DNA from: a virus
Reading direction: 5' to 3' (one strand)
Length of the DNA: 28,066 nt
Virus record (IMG/VR): IMGVR_UViG_3300025646_000249
Location: 1-28,066 of that record
Numbering within the stretch: the stretch's first letter is position 1; every line of letters begins with the position of its first letter. The notes beneath the pieces were generated by a model. It was not told the origin of the DNA. It made no database searches and saw only the letters and a program-made list of their open reading frames with translations. This document shows positions 22,020 to 27,260 of the stretch, piece after piece. The position numbers and the translations under genes are program-made.

Positions 22020-22241
22020 TCACTTATTCTCCTGTTTCTTGTCAGACTTAAGGGCCTGACCTCTATGCTGCACCCGCAGCATGTCGGAGCGGTCGGCGGT
22101 GTCAAAGCGCCGCGTCCCGATCCGGCGGGCGAAAGTCTCCATTGGTGTGCGCGAGTATTTCGGCCAGCCAGCGGCATCGTCCTGCCGCTTCTTAGAAGCG
22201 GCCTTGACGGCGGCGAGTTGTCTTTTTGACATTTTATTCAT
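22020..22241 (-). CDS. Small basic protein (73 aa)
   Basis: A lysine/arginine-rich protein with A-A-V-K-A-A-S-K-K-R-Q-D-D-A and A-R-R-I-G-T-R-R-F-D-T-A-D-R. The start overlaps the end of the XRE-like gene by 4 bases; an alternative ATG lies three codons later. GGAGG is about 11 bases upstream. No domain recognised; charged and probably nucleic-acid-interacting, which is a guess. Confidence 0.55.
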   Translation of the reverse strand: MNKMSKRQLAAVKAASKKRQDDAAGWPKYSRTPMETFARRIGTRRFDTADRSDMLRVQHRGQALKSDKKQENK

Positions 22242-22429
22242 TTCCTGACGACCTCCAATTCATAGCCGAGTACATCAAGGATTTTTTCGAGCCTAGCCCA
22301 CGGCTGTTGATGCTTCGAGTACCGATATTTATGCAGTAGCTGGCCGCTGATATTAGCAGCATCAGCGATCTGATACGCTGGCCGTCCATCCTCGATTATT
22401 AGCTGGTCGATGATCCGAGATATACTCAC
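22238..22429 (-). CDS. XRE-like small HTH protein, GTG start
   Basis: A 63-residue protein: S-I-S-R-I-I-D-Q-L-I-I-E-D-G-R-P-A-Y-Q-I-A-D-A-A-N-I-S-G-Q-L-L-H-K-Y, then W-A-R-L-E-K-I-L-D-V-L-G-Y-E-L-E-V-V-R-K. The four-helix Cro/C1 layout ends with the typical L-x-x-I-L-D-x-L-G-Y-E-L step. The GTG at 22429 is chosen because it overlaps the upstream stop (GTGA) and has AGAGGA 8 bases before it. A longer reading is in frame but would duplicate the neighbour's coding region. A likely phage regulator. Confidence 0.65.
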   Translation of the reverse strand: MSISRIIDQLIIEDGRPAYQIADAANISGQLLHKYRYSKHQQPWARLEKILDVLGYELEVVRK

Positions 22430-22578
22430 CGCACGACATCCTCTGGCTGACACCATTTGCCGCGACACTCCTGAAAGTCGATCTCCACCTGGCGAGTGAT
22501 GGCGTCGAACGCCGCGAGCCACCCTGCAACGCAGATGATGAGCGATGCAGTGAAAAGTAAAATACCTTTATTCGTCAT
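22426..22578 (-). CDS. Small membrane peptide with FQEC...C tail, paralogue of 25147-25299
   Basis: A 50-residue protein. M-T-N-K-G-I-L-L-F-T-A-S-L-I-I-C-V-A-G-W-L-A-A-F is a hydrophobic N-terminal segment, followed by D-A-I-T-R-Q-V-E-I and D-F-Q-E-C-R-G-K-W-C-Q-P-E-D. A second 50-residue gene at 25147-25299 has the same plan with D-Y-Q-E-C-G-G-G-V-Y-C-A-P-A-D. The two cysteines in a short tail after a single TM suggest a periplasmic disulphide or metal-binding hairpin. It overlaps both neighbours, the C4 gene at 22568 by 11 bases. Function unknown. Confidence 0.65.
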   Translation of the reverse strand: MTNKGILLFTASLIICVAGWLAAFDAITRQVEIDFQECRGKWCQPEDVVR

Positions 22579-22777
22579 TTTCTAATTCCTCGTTGATCCT
22601 GTCGTAGGCTAGGCACCATTTCGGGTCATGACCCGTTCTATTCCCCAGTTCACACCAGCTATCCGGCCCGGTGTCGCTCGCGTATTCGTATCCGAGAAAT
22701 TCGCACCCACGGCACTCGTCCGAACCTTCGTCAAAGGCCATCTGCACGATTTCCCAGTCCGTCATTTTACATTGCAT
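22568..22777 (-). CDS. Small C4 (zinc-ribbon-like) protein, relative of 24846-25142
   Basis: A 69-residue acidic protein. Motif D-E-C-R-G-C-E-F-L-G-Y-E-Y-A-S-D-T-G-P-D-S-W-C then P-K-W-C gives C-x2-C ... C ... C. The relative at 24846 has C-N-G-C-E-Y-Y-E-W-W-Y-A-S-G-V-G, a later C, then Q-C-P. The shared core is C-x-G-C-E-aromatic ... Y-A-S-x-x-G. It most likely binds zinc. The start may be ATG 22777 or 22765; neither has a strong ribosome site. Confidence 0.65.
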   Translation of the reverse strand: MQCKMTDWEIVQMAFDEGSDECRGCEFLGYEYASDTGPDSWCELGNRTGHDPKWCLAYDRINEELENDE

Positions 22778-22913
22778 GATGCGAGTATCCCGTTAGGAGC
22801 CTGATGGCTGTCAGTTCGTGGATGCCGCGTGCGGTCAGAAAATCGACGGCCCTCGGAAATGTGATTTCATTTTTTTCGATCTGCTTGCGCAGGGTTTCGA
22901 CGTAGATTCCCAT
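22767..22913 (-). CDS. Small protein (48 aa)
   Basis: The product begins M-G-I-Y-V-E-T-L-R-K-Q-I-E-K-N and continues R-A-V-D-F-L-T-A-R-G-I-H-E-L, then A-I-R-L-L-T-G-Y-S-H-H-A-M. The ATG is preceded by AAGGAG 7 bases upstream. It overlaps the following gene by 11 bases. A helical protein, not recognised. Confidence 0.55.
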   Translation of the reverse strand: MGIYVETLRKQIEKNEITFPRAVDFLTARGIHELTAIRLLTGYSHHAM

Positions 22914-22942
22914 GTCATGTCTCCTTGTTTAAAAGATTTAAT

Positions 22943-23025
22943 ATGGCCCATTTGCGTTGCGGGATGCAAATGCGCTCAACGCGGCATTTGTCCCATCTTT
23001 CTCAGTTTTTTGTATCGGCCCATTT
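22943..23025. promoter_or_regulatory. Gap between LexA-like gene and next gene, with two GGCCCATTT motifs
   Basis: ATGGCCCATTTG occurs at 22943-22954 and GGCCCATTT at 23017-23025, the latter overlapping the stop codon of the LexA-like gene. The first copy is identical over 12 bases to part of the capsid leader (5200-5211). The gap 22914-23023 is AT-rich near 22928-22945. It could hold an internal promoter or operator for the leftward genes. No clear -35/-10 pair is visible. Confidence 0.35.
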
Positions 23026-23230
23026 ATGGCTCCCTAACAATCCTAAGTGTTCTTGCTGCGCCGGGGATGCTGGTGATGTAACCGGCCTCCGCCAACCTCT
23101 CAATGCACCTCGTAATTGTGGAGGTGTTCAGGCCCAGCGCCTCACCGATCTCATGATGCGACGGCGAATGTCCGTACAGCATGATATAGGACGCGATCTC
23201 ATCATAGACCCTTCTCTGCGCCGGCGTCAT
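23024..23230 (-). CDS. LexA-like winged-helix DNA-binding protein (DNA-binding domain only)
   Basis: A 68-residue protein: L-Y-G-H-S-P-S-H-H-E-I-G-E-A-L-G-L-N-T-S-T-I-T-R-C-I-E-R-L-A-E-A-G-Y-I. That is the LexA N-terminal winged helix with the S-P-S-x-x-E-I-G-x-A-L-G-L recognition pattern. The protease half is absent, so cleavage in response to DNA damage is not expected. It starts with an ATGA overlap from the YqaJ gene and lies beside motif copies at 22943 and 23017, which it could read. Regulator role inferred. Confidence 0.8.
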   Translation of the reverse strand: MTPAQRRVYDEIASYIMLYGHSPSHHEIGEALGLNTSTITRCIERLAEAGYITSIPGAARTLRIVREP

Positions 23231-24186
23231 GGCAGCTCCTTAATCGCAAGCGTTTTGCTGCGGACGCTGTAAGCCGCCTTGGGCGGCGTAATCTTTTCGG
23301 GAGCGGCCTTGTAATGTCGCATTCCCCAGCCAACCTGATACTTCATATTGCCAACCGTTGCGATTGCCGCGTCATGGTTGCCCATTATTTCCTTAATGGC
23401 AGTCTGCGCTGCGTCGATTCTGTCTTCAGCGTCAACCTTGTCGGCGCGCGCTTTCAACAAATCAGACACTAACAGAGAAGCATTGAGCGCGTCAAAGTCC
23501 AGCGGTGGAGCGCCTTGATCGACGTTTGAAAACGCAACATCTGCATCGTCGCTGCTAATGACGGGATACCAATCCATGTCTCTTTTGCGCCGCTCGAAAT
23601 CATCAACGGCTTCCGCGATCCTGCGCTGCATCATTTCGTCCTTGCCGTAAATAAATAGGCGCAATTCAATGCCTCGGTAGAGCGTGGCGATACAGCCCCA
23701 TGCGGCCCCTGTGCACATCATCTGGGCTTGCAATTGAAGCGGCCCTCGATGCGACGGCGGCGAATTTTCTGGGAAAGCGCTCGTGACCTTCGCCTCTAAT
23801 ACGCCAGGGCCGGCGATGTCGATCTGCGGCGCATTCACGCAATAGATCAGGCTAGATACGTCAGTCTTGACGGTGCCTGCGCCGTCGCCCGTCCCGTCCA
23901 GGGAACATGCAAGCTCAAGCGTGGGGTGGAAGAACGGCTCGCCGTGGTCGAGCTTGACATTCTTCAGGTTGAGGCGCCGCGCAGCTTCCGCCAGCACGAT
24001 TGGCTCCAAGCGATTGCCCCACTCAGTGGCCTCGTTCCCGGCCCAGGCGGGTGGCTTGATGCCATTGTGAACCAGATCGACCATCTCCTTCAGCAACTCG
24101 TTTTGCGTCGCGTAGGGCGACAACCCCATCAACGCGGGGATGCGGGAAGCTGACAACATATAATCAGGCGTTAGTTTGCCAACCAT
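23227..24186 (-). CDS. YqaJ-family phage recombination nuclease
   Basis: A 319-residue protein. The nuclease core is visible: G57-N-R-L-E61, S-L-D97-G, L-E131-A-K133, and L-Q-L-Q153-A-Q, the set expected of the YqaJ/lambda-exonuclease-like fold. A helical C-terminal region follows, with A-R-A-D-K-V-D-A-E-D-R-I-D-A-A-Q. It would resect DNA ends for recombination or replication. It is coupled to the LexA-like gene by ATGA, and AAAGGAG lies about 10 bases upstream of its ATG. No partner annealing protein (RecT/Bet) gene is visible in the window. Confidence 0.85.
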   Translation of the reverse strand: MVGKLTPDYMLSASRIPALMGLSPYATQNELLKEMVDLVHNGIKPPAWAGNEATEWGNRLEPIVLAEAARRLNLKNVKLDHGEPFFHPTLELACSLDGTGDGAGTVKTDVSSLIYCVNAPQIDIAGPGVLEAKVTSAFPENSPPSHRGPLQLQAQMMCTGAAWGCIATLYRGIELRLFIYGKDEMMQRRIAEAVDDFERRKRDMDWYPVISSDDADVAFSNVDQGAPPLDFDALNASLLVSDLLKARADKVDAEDRIDAAQTAIKEIMGNHDAAIATVGNMKYQVGWGMRHYKAAPEKITPPKAAYSVRSKTLAIKELP

Positions 24187-24187
24187 T

Positions 24188-24838
24188 TCAAATTGCTCCT
24201 TTTTTCAAAAGTAAATTGCGAACGGTGGAGGCATGCCACCTCCCGCCGCGCGCGGTTTGGGCTTCGTCTTCATTTAAGTAATCTGCGATGCGGCGCAGAC
24301 TCGCGCCGTTGTCATGCAGCGCCTTGACGGCGCTCCAGGCGCCATCCTCGCAAGCCCTGACACGCGCGGCCCCTGCCTTGGCGCGAGCGCGGCCACCGGC
24401 CGCCGGGTTGGGGGAGCCGAGCTTGACGCCACGCGCTTTCGCAGCAGCCAGCGCGGCCTTGGTCCGGCGGGAAATTTCCTCGCGTTCATGCTGCGCGAAC
24501 ACAGCGCGGATACCCCACTCAAGCGTCCCCATGTGCGGCGCGTCGGCGGCAAGGATATCGACGCCAGAGTTTTTGATCTTGAATAGGAATTCGACATCGC
24601 GCGATAGCCGATCAACCTTAGCGATTAACAGACAAGCGCCCTCGCGCTTGCAATGATCCAGGGCGCGGGCAAGGTTCGGCCTGTCAGCGCGCTTGCCGCT
24701 TTCGACATCCTGATATGCGGCAATAATATGGCGCTCGTATGGCGCCACTAGGGCGCGTTGAGCCTCAAGGCCCAATCCGCTGGCGCCCTGGCGCGCGGTG
24801 CTGACGCGCAAGTAAAGCACAAATTGTCTATCCGTCAT
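24188..24838 (-). CDS. Small serine recombinase (resolvase/invertase family)
   Basis: A 216-residue protein. N-terminal Y-L-R11-V-S13-T with the nucleophile Ser13, L-G-L-E-A-Q-R, then K-V-D76-R77-L-S-R80-D, and the E-helix H-E-R-E-E-I-S-R-R-T-K-A-A-L. The C-terminus carries a HTH (S-L-R-R-I-A-D-Y-L-N-E-D near residue 178). The ATG at 24838 is preferred over earlier in-frame starts, which would read into the upstream gene. It lacks the long zinc/coiled-coil region of large integrases, so it fits a resolvase or invertase. A role in integration is possible but unsupported, as no attachment site is seen. Confidence 0.85.
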   Translation of the reverse strand: MTDRQFVLYLRVSTARQGASGLGLEAQRALVAPYERHIIAAYQDVESGKRADRPNLARALDHCKREGACLLIAKVDRLSRDVEFLFKIKNSGVDILAADAPHMGTLEWGIRAVFAQHEREEISRRTKAALAAAKARGVKLGSPNPAAGGRARAKAGAARVRACEDGAWSAVKALHDNGASLRRIADYLNEDEAQTARGGRWHASTVRNLLLKKGAI

Positions 24839-24845
24839 TCCAATT

Positions 24846-25142
24846 TTACTCCTGCCCGTCTTCATTCGGGCCGTTGTCATGCTGCGGGCATTGCCACGGC
24901 TGGGCGCCCGTCGTTGATAAAAGTAGGCATTCGGCGTCAAAGCCTACGCCGCTGGCGTACCACCATTCATAATATTCGCACCCGTTACAGGCCGCGCCGC
25001 GCTCGAATACGTCGGCGACGGCCTGCCAGTCGCGCCGCGTCAATTCCGCTCGCAGCGCCGCCTTGTCGGCGTCCCGGACGTGCTGGCTTTCGAGCGCCGC
25101 GTCGATGTCGCGGCGGGTATAATTTCGCGGATCATGGCGCAT
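24846..25142 (-). CDS. C4 (zinc-ribbon-like) protein, relative of 22568-22777
   Basis: A 98-residue protein with the start at ATG 25142, 4 bases after the previous stop. An N-terminal helical region (R-D-I-D-A-A-L-E-S, then R-R-D-W-Q-A-V-A-D-V-F) is followed by C-N-G-C-E-Y-Y-E-W-W-Y-A-S-G-V-G-F-D-A-E-C, then Q-P-W-Q-C-P-Q-H-D. The core resembles that of 22568-22777, where D-W also lies about 15 residues before the first Cys. It ends just before the recombinase gene, whose GGAG lies in its stop region. Zinc binding is inferred. Confidence 0.65.
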   Translation of the reverse strand: MRHDPRNYTRRDIDAALESQHVRDADKAALRAELTRRDWQAVADVFERGAACNGCEYYEWWYASGVGFDAECLLLSTTGAQPWQCPQHDNGPNEDGQE

Positions 25143-25146
25143 GATG

Positions 25147-25299
25147 TTAGCGCCGCATGGGCGGATCAGCGGGCGCGCAATAGACGCCGCCACCACACTC
25201 TTGATAATCGAGCGCGCGCGCGGTTTCCGCCAGGTCGGCGAAATAGAGCGCCATGGCCGCGCCAAGCGCGATGATGGCGGCGGTATAGATTGGTTTCAT
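25147..25299 (-). CDS. Small membrane peptide with YQEC...C tail, paralogue of 22426-22578
   Basis: A 50-residue protein. M-K-P-I-Y-T-A-A-I-I-A-L-G-A-A-M-A-L-Y-F-A-D-L is a single membrane segment or uncleaved signal, followed by A-L-D-Y-Q-E-C-G-G-G-V-Y-C-A-P-A-D. The start is chosen at the ATG that follows an AAAGGGAAAACC site; upstream in frame lies the 9-bp repeat array, whose translation (Y/H-K-L repeats) looks non-genic. The partner C4 gene follows immediately, as in the other copy but in reversed order. Confidence 0.65.
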   Translation of the reverse strand: MKPIYTAAIIALGAAMALYFADLAETARALDYQECGGGVYCAPADPPMRR

Positions 25300-25314: not shown

Positions 25315-25368
25315 CAACTTGTGCAACTTGTGCAACTTGTACAACTTGTACAACTTGTGCAACTTGTA
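25315..25368 (-). repeat. Six tandem 9-bp palindromic repeats (ACAAGTTGT type)
   Basis: Six contiguous units starting at 25315, 25324, 25333, 25342, 25351 and 25360, each CAACTTGT(G/A) on the plus strand. ACAACTTGT reads the same on both strands except for its central base, so each unit is a potential binding site. The array lies on the leader side of the small membrane-peptide gene at 25147-25299 (minus strand), between a possible promoter and that gene's ribosome site. A seventh, degenerate GGTTGTACC follows. Confidence 0.9.
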
Positions 25369-27104: not shown

Positions 27105-27260
27105 TTATTTGCAAGAATTGTAAGCTTGGCACATTTGACCGAACGGAAAACCGTTTTCGCGTTCGAATGTGTCGATTGCGGGAATAGTGAATGCAAACAT
27201 GACATAACCGAATGCCGCGATTGCTACCATTGAAAGCGCGCTGTTTAGAATGTGTCGCAT
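27105..27260 (-). CDS. Small membrane peptide with C-terminal Cys pair (51 aa)
   Basis: The product is M-R-H-I-L-N-S-A-L-S-M-V-A-I-A-A-F-G-Y-V-M-F-A-F-T-I-P followed by a soluble tail ending M-C-Q-A-Y-N-S-C-K. The ATG at 27260 is chosen because AAAGGAA is about 10 bases upstream and earlier in-frame codons would read through a hairpin. Plan (one TM, then a Cys-x(5)-Cys tail) resembles the two QEC peptides, although the motif itself is absent. Confidence 0.6.
   Translation of the reverse strand: MRHILNSALSMVAIAAFGYVMFAFTIPAIDTFERENGFPFGQMCQAYNSCK

Follow-up and report, generated by a model that had tools for sequence, protein, structure and literature searches.

A phage family of predicted one-span membrane micro-proteins with a conserved two-cysteine tail, and its local C4 companion

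The window, meaning the whole stretch of DNA analysed here, spans 28,066 bases and is a complete virus record of IMG/VR. It belongs to a marine-type phage; by portal protein, its closest cultured relative is Methylophilales phage MEP301, at 69% identity. The genes of interest lie in two copies, A and B, all on the minus strand. In copy A, pepA (22426-22578) encodes a QEC peptide of 50 aa with one membrane span (residues ~6-24) and the tail DFQECRGKWCQPED. It overlaps by 11 nt the gene C4A (22568-22777), whose 69-aa product carries four invariant cysteines. C4A in turn shares 11 nt with the upstream gene HP (22767-22913), which encodes a 48-aa predicted helical peptide. The small protein encoded at 22238-22429, which matched only HTH entries and those weakly, starts at a GTG at 22429 that overlaps the pepA stop, so that HP, C4A, pepA and this gene form one series of overlapping reading frames; similar small proteins were found in loci L009, L010 and L104. 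Copy B runs in series with gaps of 4 and 7 nt. Its pepB (25147-25299) encodes a QEC peptide of 50 aa with an Ala-rich membrane span and the tail DYQECGGGVYCAPADPP, and is followed by C4B (24846-25142; 98 aa, an N-terminal extension plus the four-Cys domain) and by a serine recombinase gene (24188-24838; PF00239 and PF07508), the start codon of which lies 7 nt past the C4B stop. Beyond the recombinase come a YqaJ/RecE-like recombination exonuclease (23227-24186; PF09588, phrog_434) and a protein with a LexA-like DNA-binding domain (23024-23230; PF01726).

Just upstream of the pepB start, at 25315-25367, a 9-bp unit (CAACTTGTG/CAACTTGTA) is repeated in tandem (5.9 copies, 95% match). Judged from translated upstream frames only, this array is missing in L005-L007. 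Elsewhere in the window, three consecutive small ORFs (1028-1255, 1255-1467 and 1468-1677) are built alike: each starts Ala/Pro-rich, turns basic and R-rich in the middle and finishes with ...TTLG(A/V)G.

The pepA, C4A, C4B and pepB frames all lie where the sequence-only reading had placed them, and the likeness between the copies that it had described is well above chance. The local alignment score of pepA and pepB was 50, where shuffled sequences averaged 19.0 (sd 3.9; 0/2000 shuffles reached 50), and that of C4A and C4B was 99, compared with a shuffled mean of 26.9 (sd 5.0; 0/2000 shuffles). The gene order is indeed swapped, the C4 gene preceding the peptide gene in copy A but following it in copy B, and the two copies do flank the LexA-like, nuclease and recombinase genes. 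Since homologues in other contigs are under purifying selection, with a pooled dN/dS of 0.17-0.28 for the QEC peptides and 0.03-0.24 for C4, the peptide and C4 genes are real. The description of the locus as a duplicated module holds insofar as two similar peptide/C4 pairs are present, but it is worded too strongly: in a tree of only six short sequences, C4A falls together with the L013 protein (support 97/99), apart from C4B. Thus, copies A and B did not arise by a recent duplication. Copy A is missing in the relatives L006 and L007, the nuclease of which is 97% identical.

Both pepA and pepB have a short N-terminus, one hydrophobic span, the motif [DE][YF]QEC-x(3-5)-C and a Y or W before the second cysteine. 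They are members of a family, missing from Pfam and PHROGs, in which a membrane span is followed by [DE][YF]QEC-G-G-x-[YW]-C. Scans with degenerate DNA patterns located this family in three phage groups with few other proteins in common. The pattern [DE]-[FY or similar]-Q-E-C-x-G-x-x-C-x-P matched 16 stretches in IMG/VR, all 16 of which encode small one-span peptides. The same pattern had two matches in 257 Gb of GTDB bacterial and archaeal genomes, neither with a membrane span, and both were dismissed as a motif outside any membrane-peptide ORF. A second viral pattern, [DE]YQECGG, from which the second cysteine was omitted, added seven one-span peptides, in each of which [YW]C comes four residues later; matches lacking a span were dismissed as chance, as none of them has an aromatic-preceded second cysteine. 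The L104 peptide is likewise a member. Across 17 peptides five residues are invariant (Q, E, C, G and C), all in the tail, the conservation of Q, E, C and G being partly built into the search patterns; the Y/W before the second cysteine was in neither pattern, and the second cysteine was not in the last one. Such motif-based scans find sequences that keep the motif, and divergent relatives of either family, or distant pairs, may be missed. A relative of known function was found neither in 50,697 phage records, where tblastn finds short peptides poorly, nor in PHROGs or Pfam, and the matches in PHROGs and Pfam were limited to weak ones to families of unknown function, none to a described superinfection-exclusion family.

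A third small membrane peptide is encoded at 27105-27260 on the minus strand of the window, with a C-x5-C tail (...FGQMCQAYNSCK). It was rejected as a QEC member, its alignment not scoring significantly above shuffles. A span resembling its own, without the Cys tail, occurs in L013 at 2478-2576.

The C4 proteins are a second small family. Their four cysteines are invariant across six aligned proteins, and C4A and C4B both fit the pattern DW..V...F..G...C..C ... Y ... G ... C.L ... G..P..C. Neither a signal peptide nor a membrane span was seen in C4. The AlphaFold2 model has a mean pLDDT of 59.7, with the cysteine region mostly under 50, and a PDB sequence match below E 0.35 was not found. From the spacing of the cysteines, zinc binding by C4 is plausible. 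Collection scans located C4 solely in the window's own phage group, with zero relatives in GTDB genomes. C4 may be pictured as a separate small cytoplasmic protein of the zinc-knuckle type, particular to this group and probably expressed from the same operons as the QEC peptide, yet not needed by it. An apparent fusion of a membrane span to C4 in L011 was rejected: the frame of the span there runs across a gene of 193 aa, and C4 begins at a start of its own, preceded by GGAGG.

The claim that the 50-residue peptide is a membrane protein agrees with the one span predicted for it. In a script count, the flank N-terminal to the span is positive in 13 of the 17 peptides; the tail up to the second cysteine has a net negative charge in 15 and is neutral in the other two. 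Because of the charge of the N-terminal flank, the positive-inside rule would put the tail in the periplasm. Were the topology N-out, the tail would lie in the reducing cytoplasm, and the reading of the cysteines as a metal site would return. A loop of variable length, 3-5 residues, would suit a disulphide better than it would metal binding or a redox motif of the CxxC kind. Since YQECGGxYC recurs in otherwise unrelated phages, the two-Cys tail is probably the working part of the peptide. The family would then consist of phage micro-proteins of about 43-53 residues, with a very short, usually positive N-terminus inside the cell, one helix across the inner membrane and a periplasmic C-terminal tail, [DE][YF]QEC-(G)G-x-[YW]-C, in which a disulphide between the two cysteines closes a loop of 3-5 residues. 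This loop would be what binds an envelope target. An envelope-facing disulphide loop on a membrane tether, with C4 as a separate protein that is not required, is our best explanation overall, although we offer it tentatively, at somewhat less than an even chance. The likeliest use would be to protect the infected cell, as in superinfection exclusion, or to tune an envelope protein early in infection.

Carrier phages were compared by proteins of at least 90 aa from the fetched stretches, so that some common genes may be missed. By this comparison, group I (that of the window) has one short protein match with group IV and one with group V, the latter being also its single match with group III; groups II and IV have several proteins in common, and groups III and V a whole replication module. 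From this protein sharing, the carriers appear to form three broadly separate groups: I, II+IV and III+V. The setting of the QEC gene is an early region with recombination and replication genes. In group I it lies in the operon of the YqaJ nuclease, in group II it follows NinB and HP, in group IV (L128) it stands between HP and a GWP protein, and in most group III records it comes after a helicase and a small gene and directly before a RecE/Cas4-like nuclease. The group V order is HP, helicase, QEC and nuclease; in L133 of that group a longer ORF, DNA methyltransferase-like by eye, lies between QEC and nuclease. Between groups III and V, whose neighbouring genes are in common, the membrane span has diverged whereas the tail is kept.

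HP, a predicted helical peptide of ~45 residues, recurs by QEC or C4 in L106, L113, L128, L132, L133, L136 and L011; its relatives adjoin QEC in L106, L113 and L128 and lie near C4 in L011. Among the loci examined, the HP profile matched only those bearing QEC or C4, which is a lead only, as the profile was built from those loci. HP may be a more consistent companion than C4 across phage groups. In L106 (2031-2243), L113 (918-1130) and L114 (14614-14826; all locus coordinates), an ORF made almost entirely of LRGVLRVL-like repeats lies within the gene after QEC, and the underlying DNA must itself be highly repetitive.

Across L104, L106, L128, L011 and the window, the same small genes turn up in varying order and with varying neighbours, and close relatives lack copy A. 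HP, C4, QEC, GWP and HTH could accordingly be unlinked accessory micro-genes swapped within one early island, their adjacency functionally meaningless. This would explain the arrangement, but it does not explain why the tail is conserved across groups with little else in common, and we consider it rather unlikely as a full account. In groups III and V the reading frame of the peptide overlaps that of a nuclease or directly adjoins it, a contact that could instead point to a role in replication, the peptide tethering the nuclease or other replication proteins to the inner membrane. Such a tether would fit the placement of the peptide gene: immediately ahead of the RecE/Cas4-like nuclease in most members of groups III and V, behind NinB and HP in group II, and, in group I, within the operon that also holds YqaJ. 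However, the cytoplasmic side offers only 0-5 predicted residues, the conserved part is at the opposite end, and small early-region genes adjoin such genes anyway; we regard a replication tether as distinctly unlikely.

The sequence-only reading had proposed that the peptide and C4 act together, for instance with the peptide as membrane anchor and C4 as the partner bearing a metal or a disulphide. That both are real gene families standing side by side in the window's own group is borne out. Scans with the C4 and peptide alignments recovered the pair in the same-group contigs L003, L008, L005 (the contig of L086/L088), L006, L007, L009, L051 and L085/L108, where the order is peptide then C4, followed by recombinase and nuclease wherever the contig extends far enough, as in copy B. 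QEC and C4 adjoin in all 9 window-group records holding both, they stand in two opposite orders in the window, and their reading frames overlap or nearly touch, all of which would suit a two-part unit. Against this, the neighbours of the QEC gene were counted by hand in 25 records (L104, whose contig is cut off too close, was left out), and these counts of records are not counts of independent events: a C4 neighbour was present in 9, window included, and absent in 16, which come from two other phage groups. Conversely, the gene that precedes C4 in L011, L013 and L102 is one of 193 aa. In L011 and L013 this arrangement lies downstream of the nuclease, and the two of these three records that were searched whole yielded no QEC peptide. 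Peptide and C4 are thus not adjacent wherever either occurs, as an obligate two-gene module would be, and they are apart in most records (16/25), the outcome that had been named beforehand as telling against the proposal. Furthermore, should the charge rule hold, the conserved tail would be periplasmic and C4, with neither signal peptide nor span, cytoplasmic, which would place the two on opposite sides of the membrane. A working pair is consequently improbable, and C4 is a local companion of the QEC peptide rather than an obligatory partner. The peptide by itself may yet have an exclusion role.

Known phage systems offer analogies to an envelope-facing loop. T4 Spackle (gp61.3) is an exclusion protein that is made early, acts in the periplasm and carries a disulphide (PMC7677548), and with which the QEC peptide would have in common an early phage origin, periplasmic action and a single disulphide. 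This is analogy, not membership: Spackle is a soluble 75-residue helical bundle after signal cleavage, whereas the QEC peptide has one span and a short loop. Imm is named alongside Spackle as an exclusion product (PMC7677548). Like the QEC peptide it is an early phage product, and it gives exclusion. T4 Imm and other small exclusion proteins have a small membrane-protein setting. A sequence link between them and the QEC peptide was not found, and we know of no QEC tail in any of them. By such analogies, superinfection exclusion is a conceivable function of the peptide, though an unlikely one when taken by itself. T4 antiholin RI, like the QEC peptide as predicted here, is a small exported phage protein that would act at the periplasmic face of the inner membrane (PMC8385771). 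RI, however, regulates lysis and has a signal peptide that can be cleaved off. A lysis-timing or membrane-disrupting peptide (antiholin-like, holin-like or toxic) would fit the size and single span and has in RI a precedent for an exported lysis regulator, but the QEC genes sit with recombination and replication genes and conservation is in the tail rather than the span, making this highly improbable. Methylophilales phage MEP301 has the recombinase followed by the YqaJ nuclease in the same order as the window, but neither a QEC peptide nor C4 at the profile threshold used.

The YQECGGxYC tail may be a transferable envelope-acting module borne by micro-proteins in three or more phage groups that are otherwise unrelated, the spans being mere tethers and the target one conserved host envelope component; we consider this possible, if somewhat doubtful. 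Within one genome, adjacency and repetition can hint at a partnership that broader sampling contradicts. Phage early regions are rich in tiny unannotated membrane genes, and the short signature described here singles out those of this family among millions of contigs while rarely matching falsely. Thus, the family can be tracked across uncultured phages.
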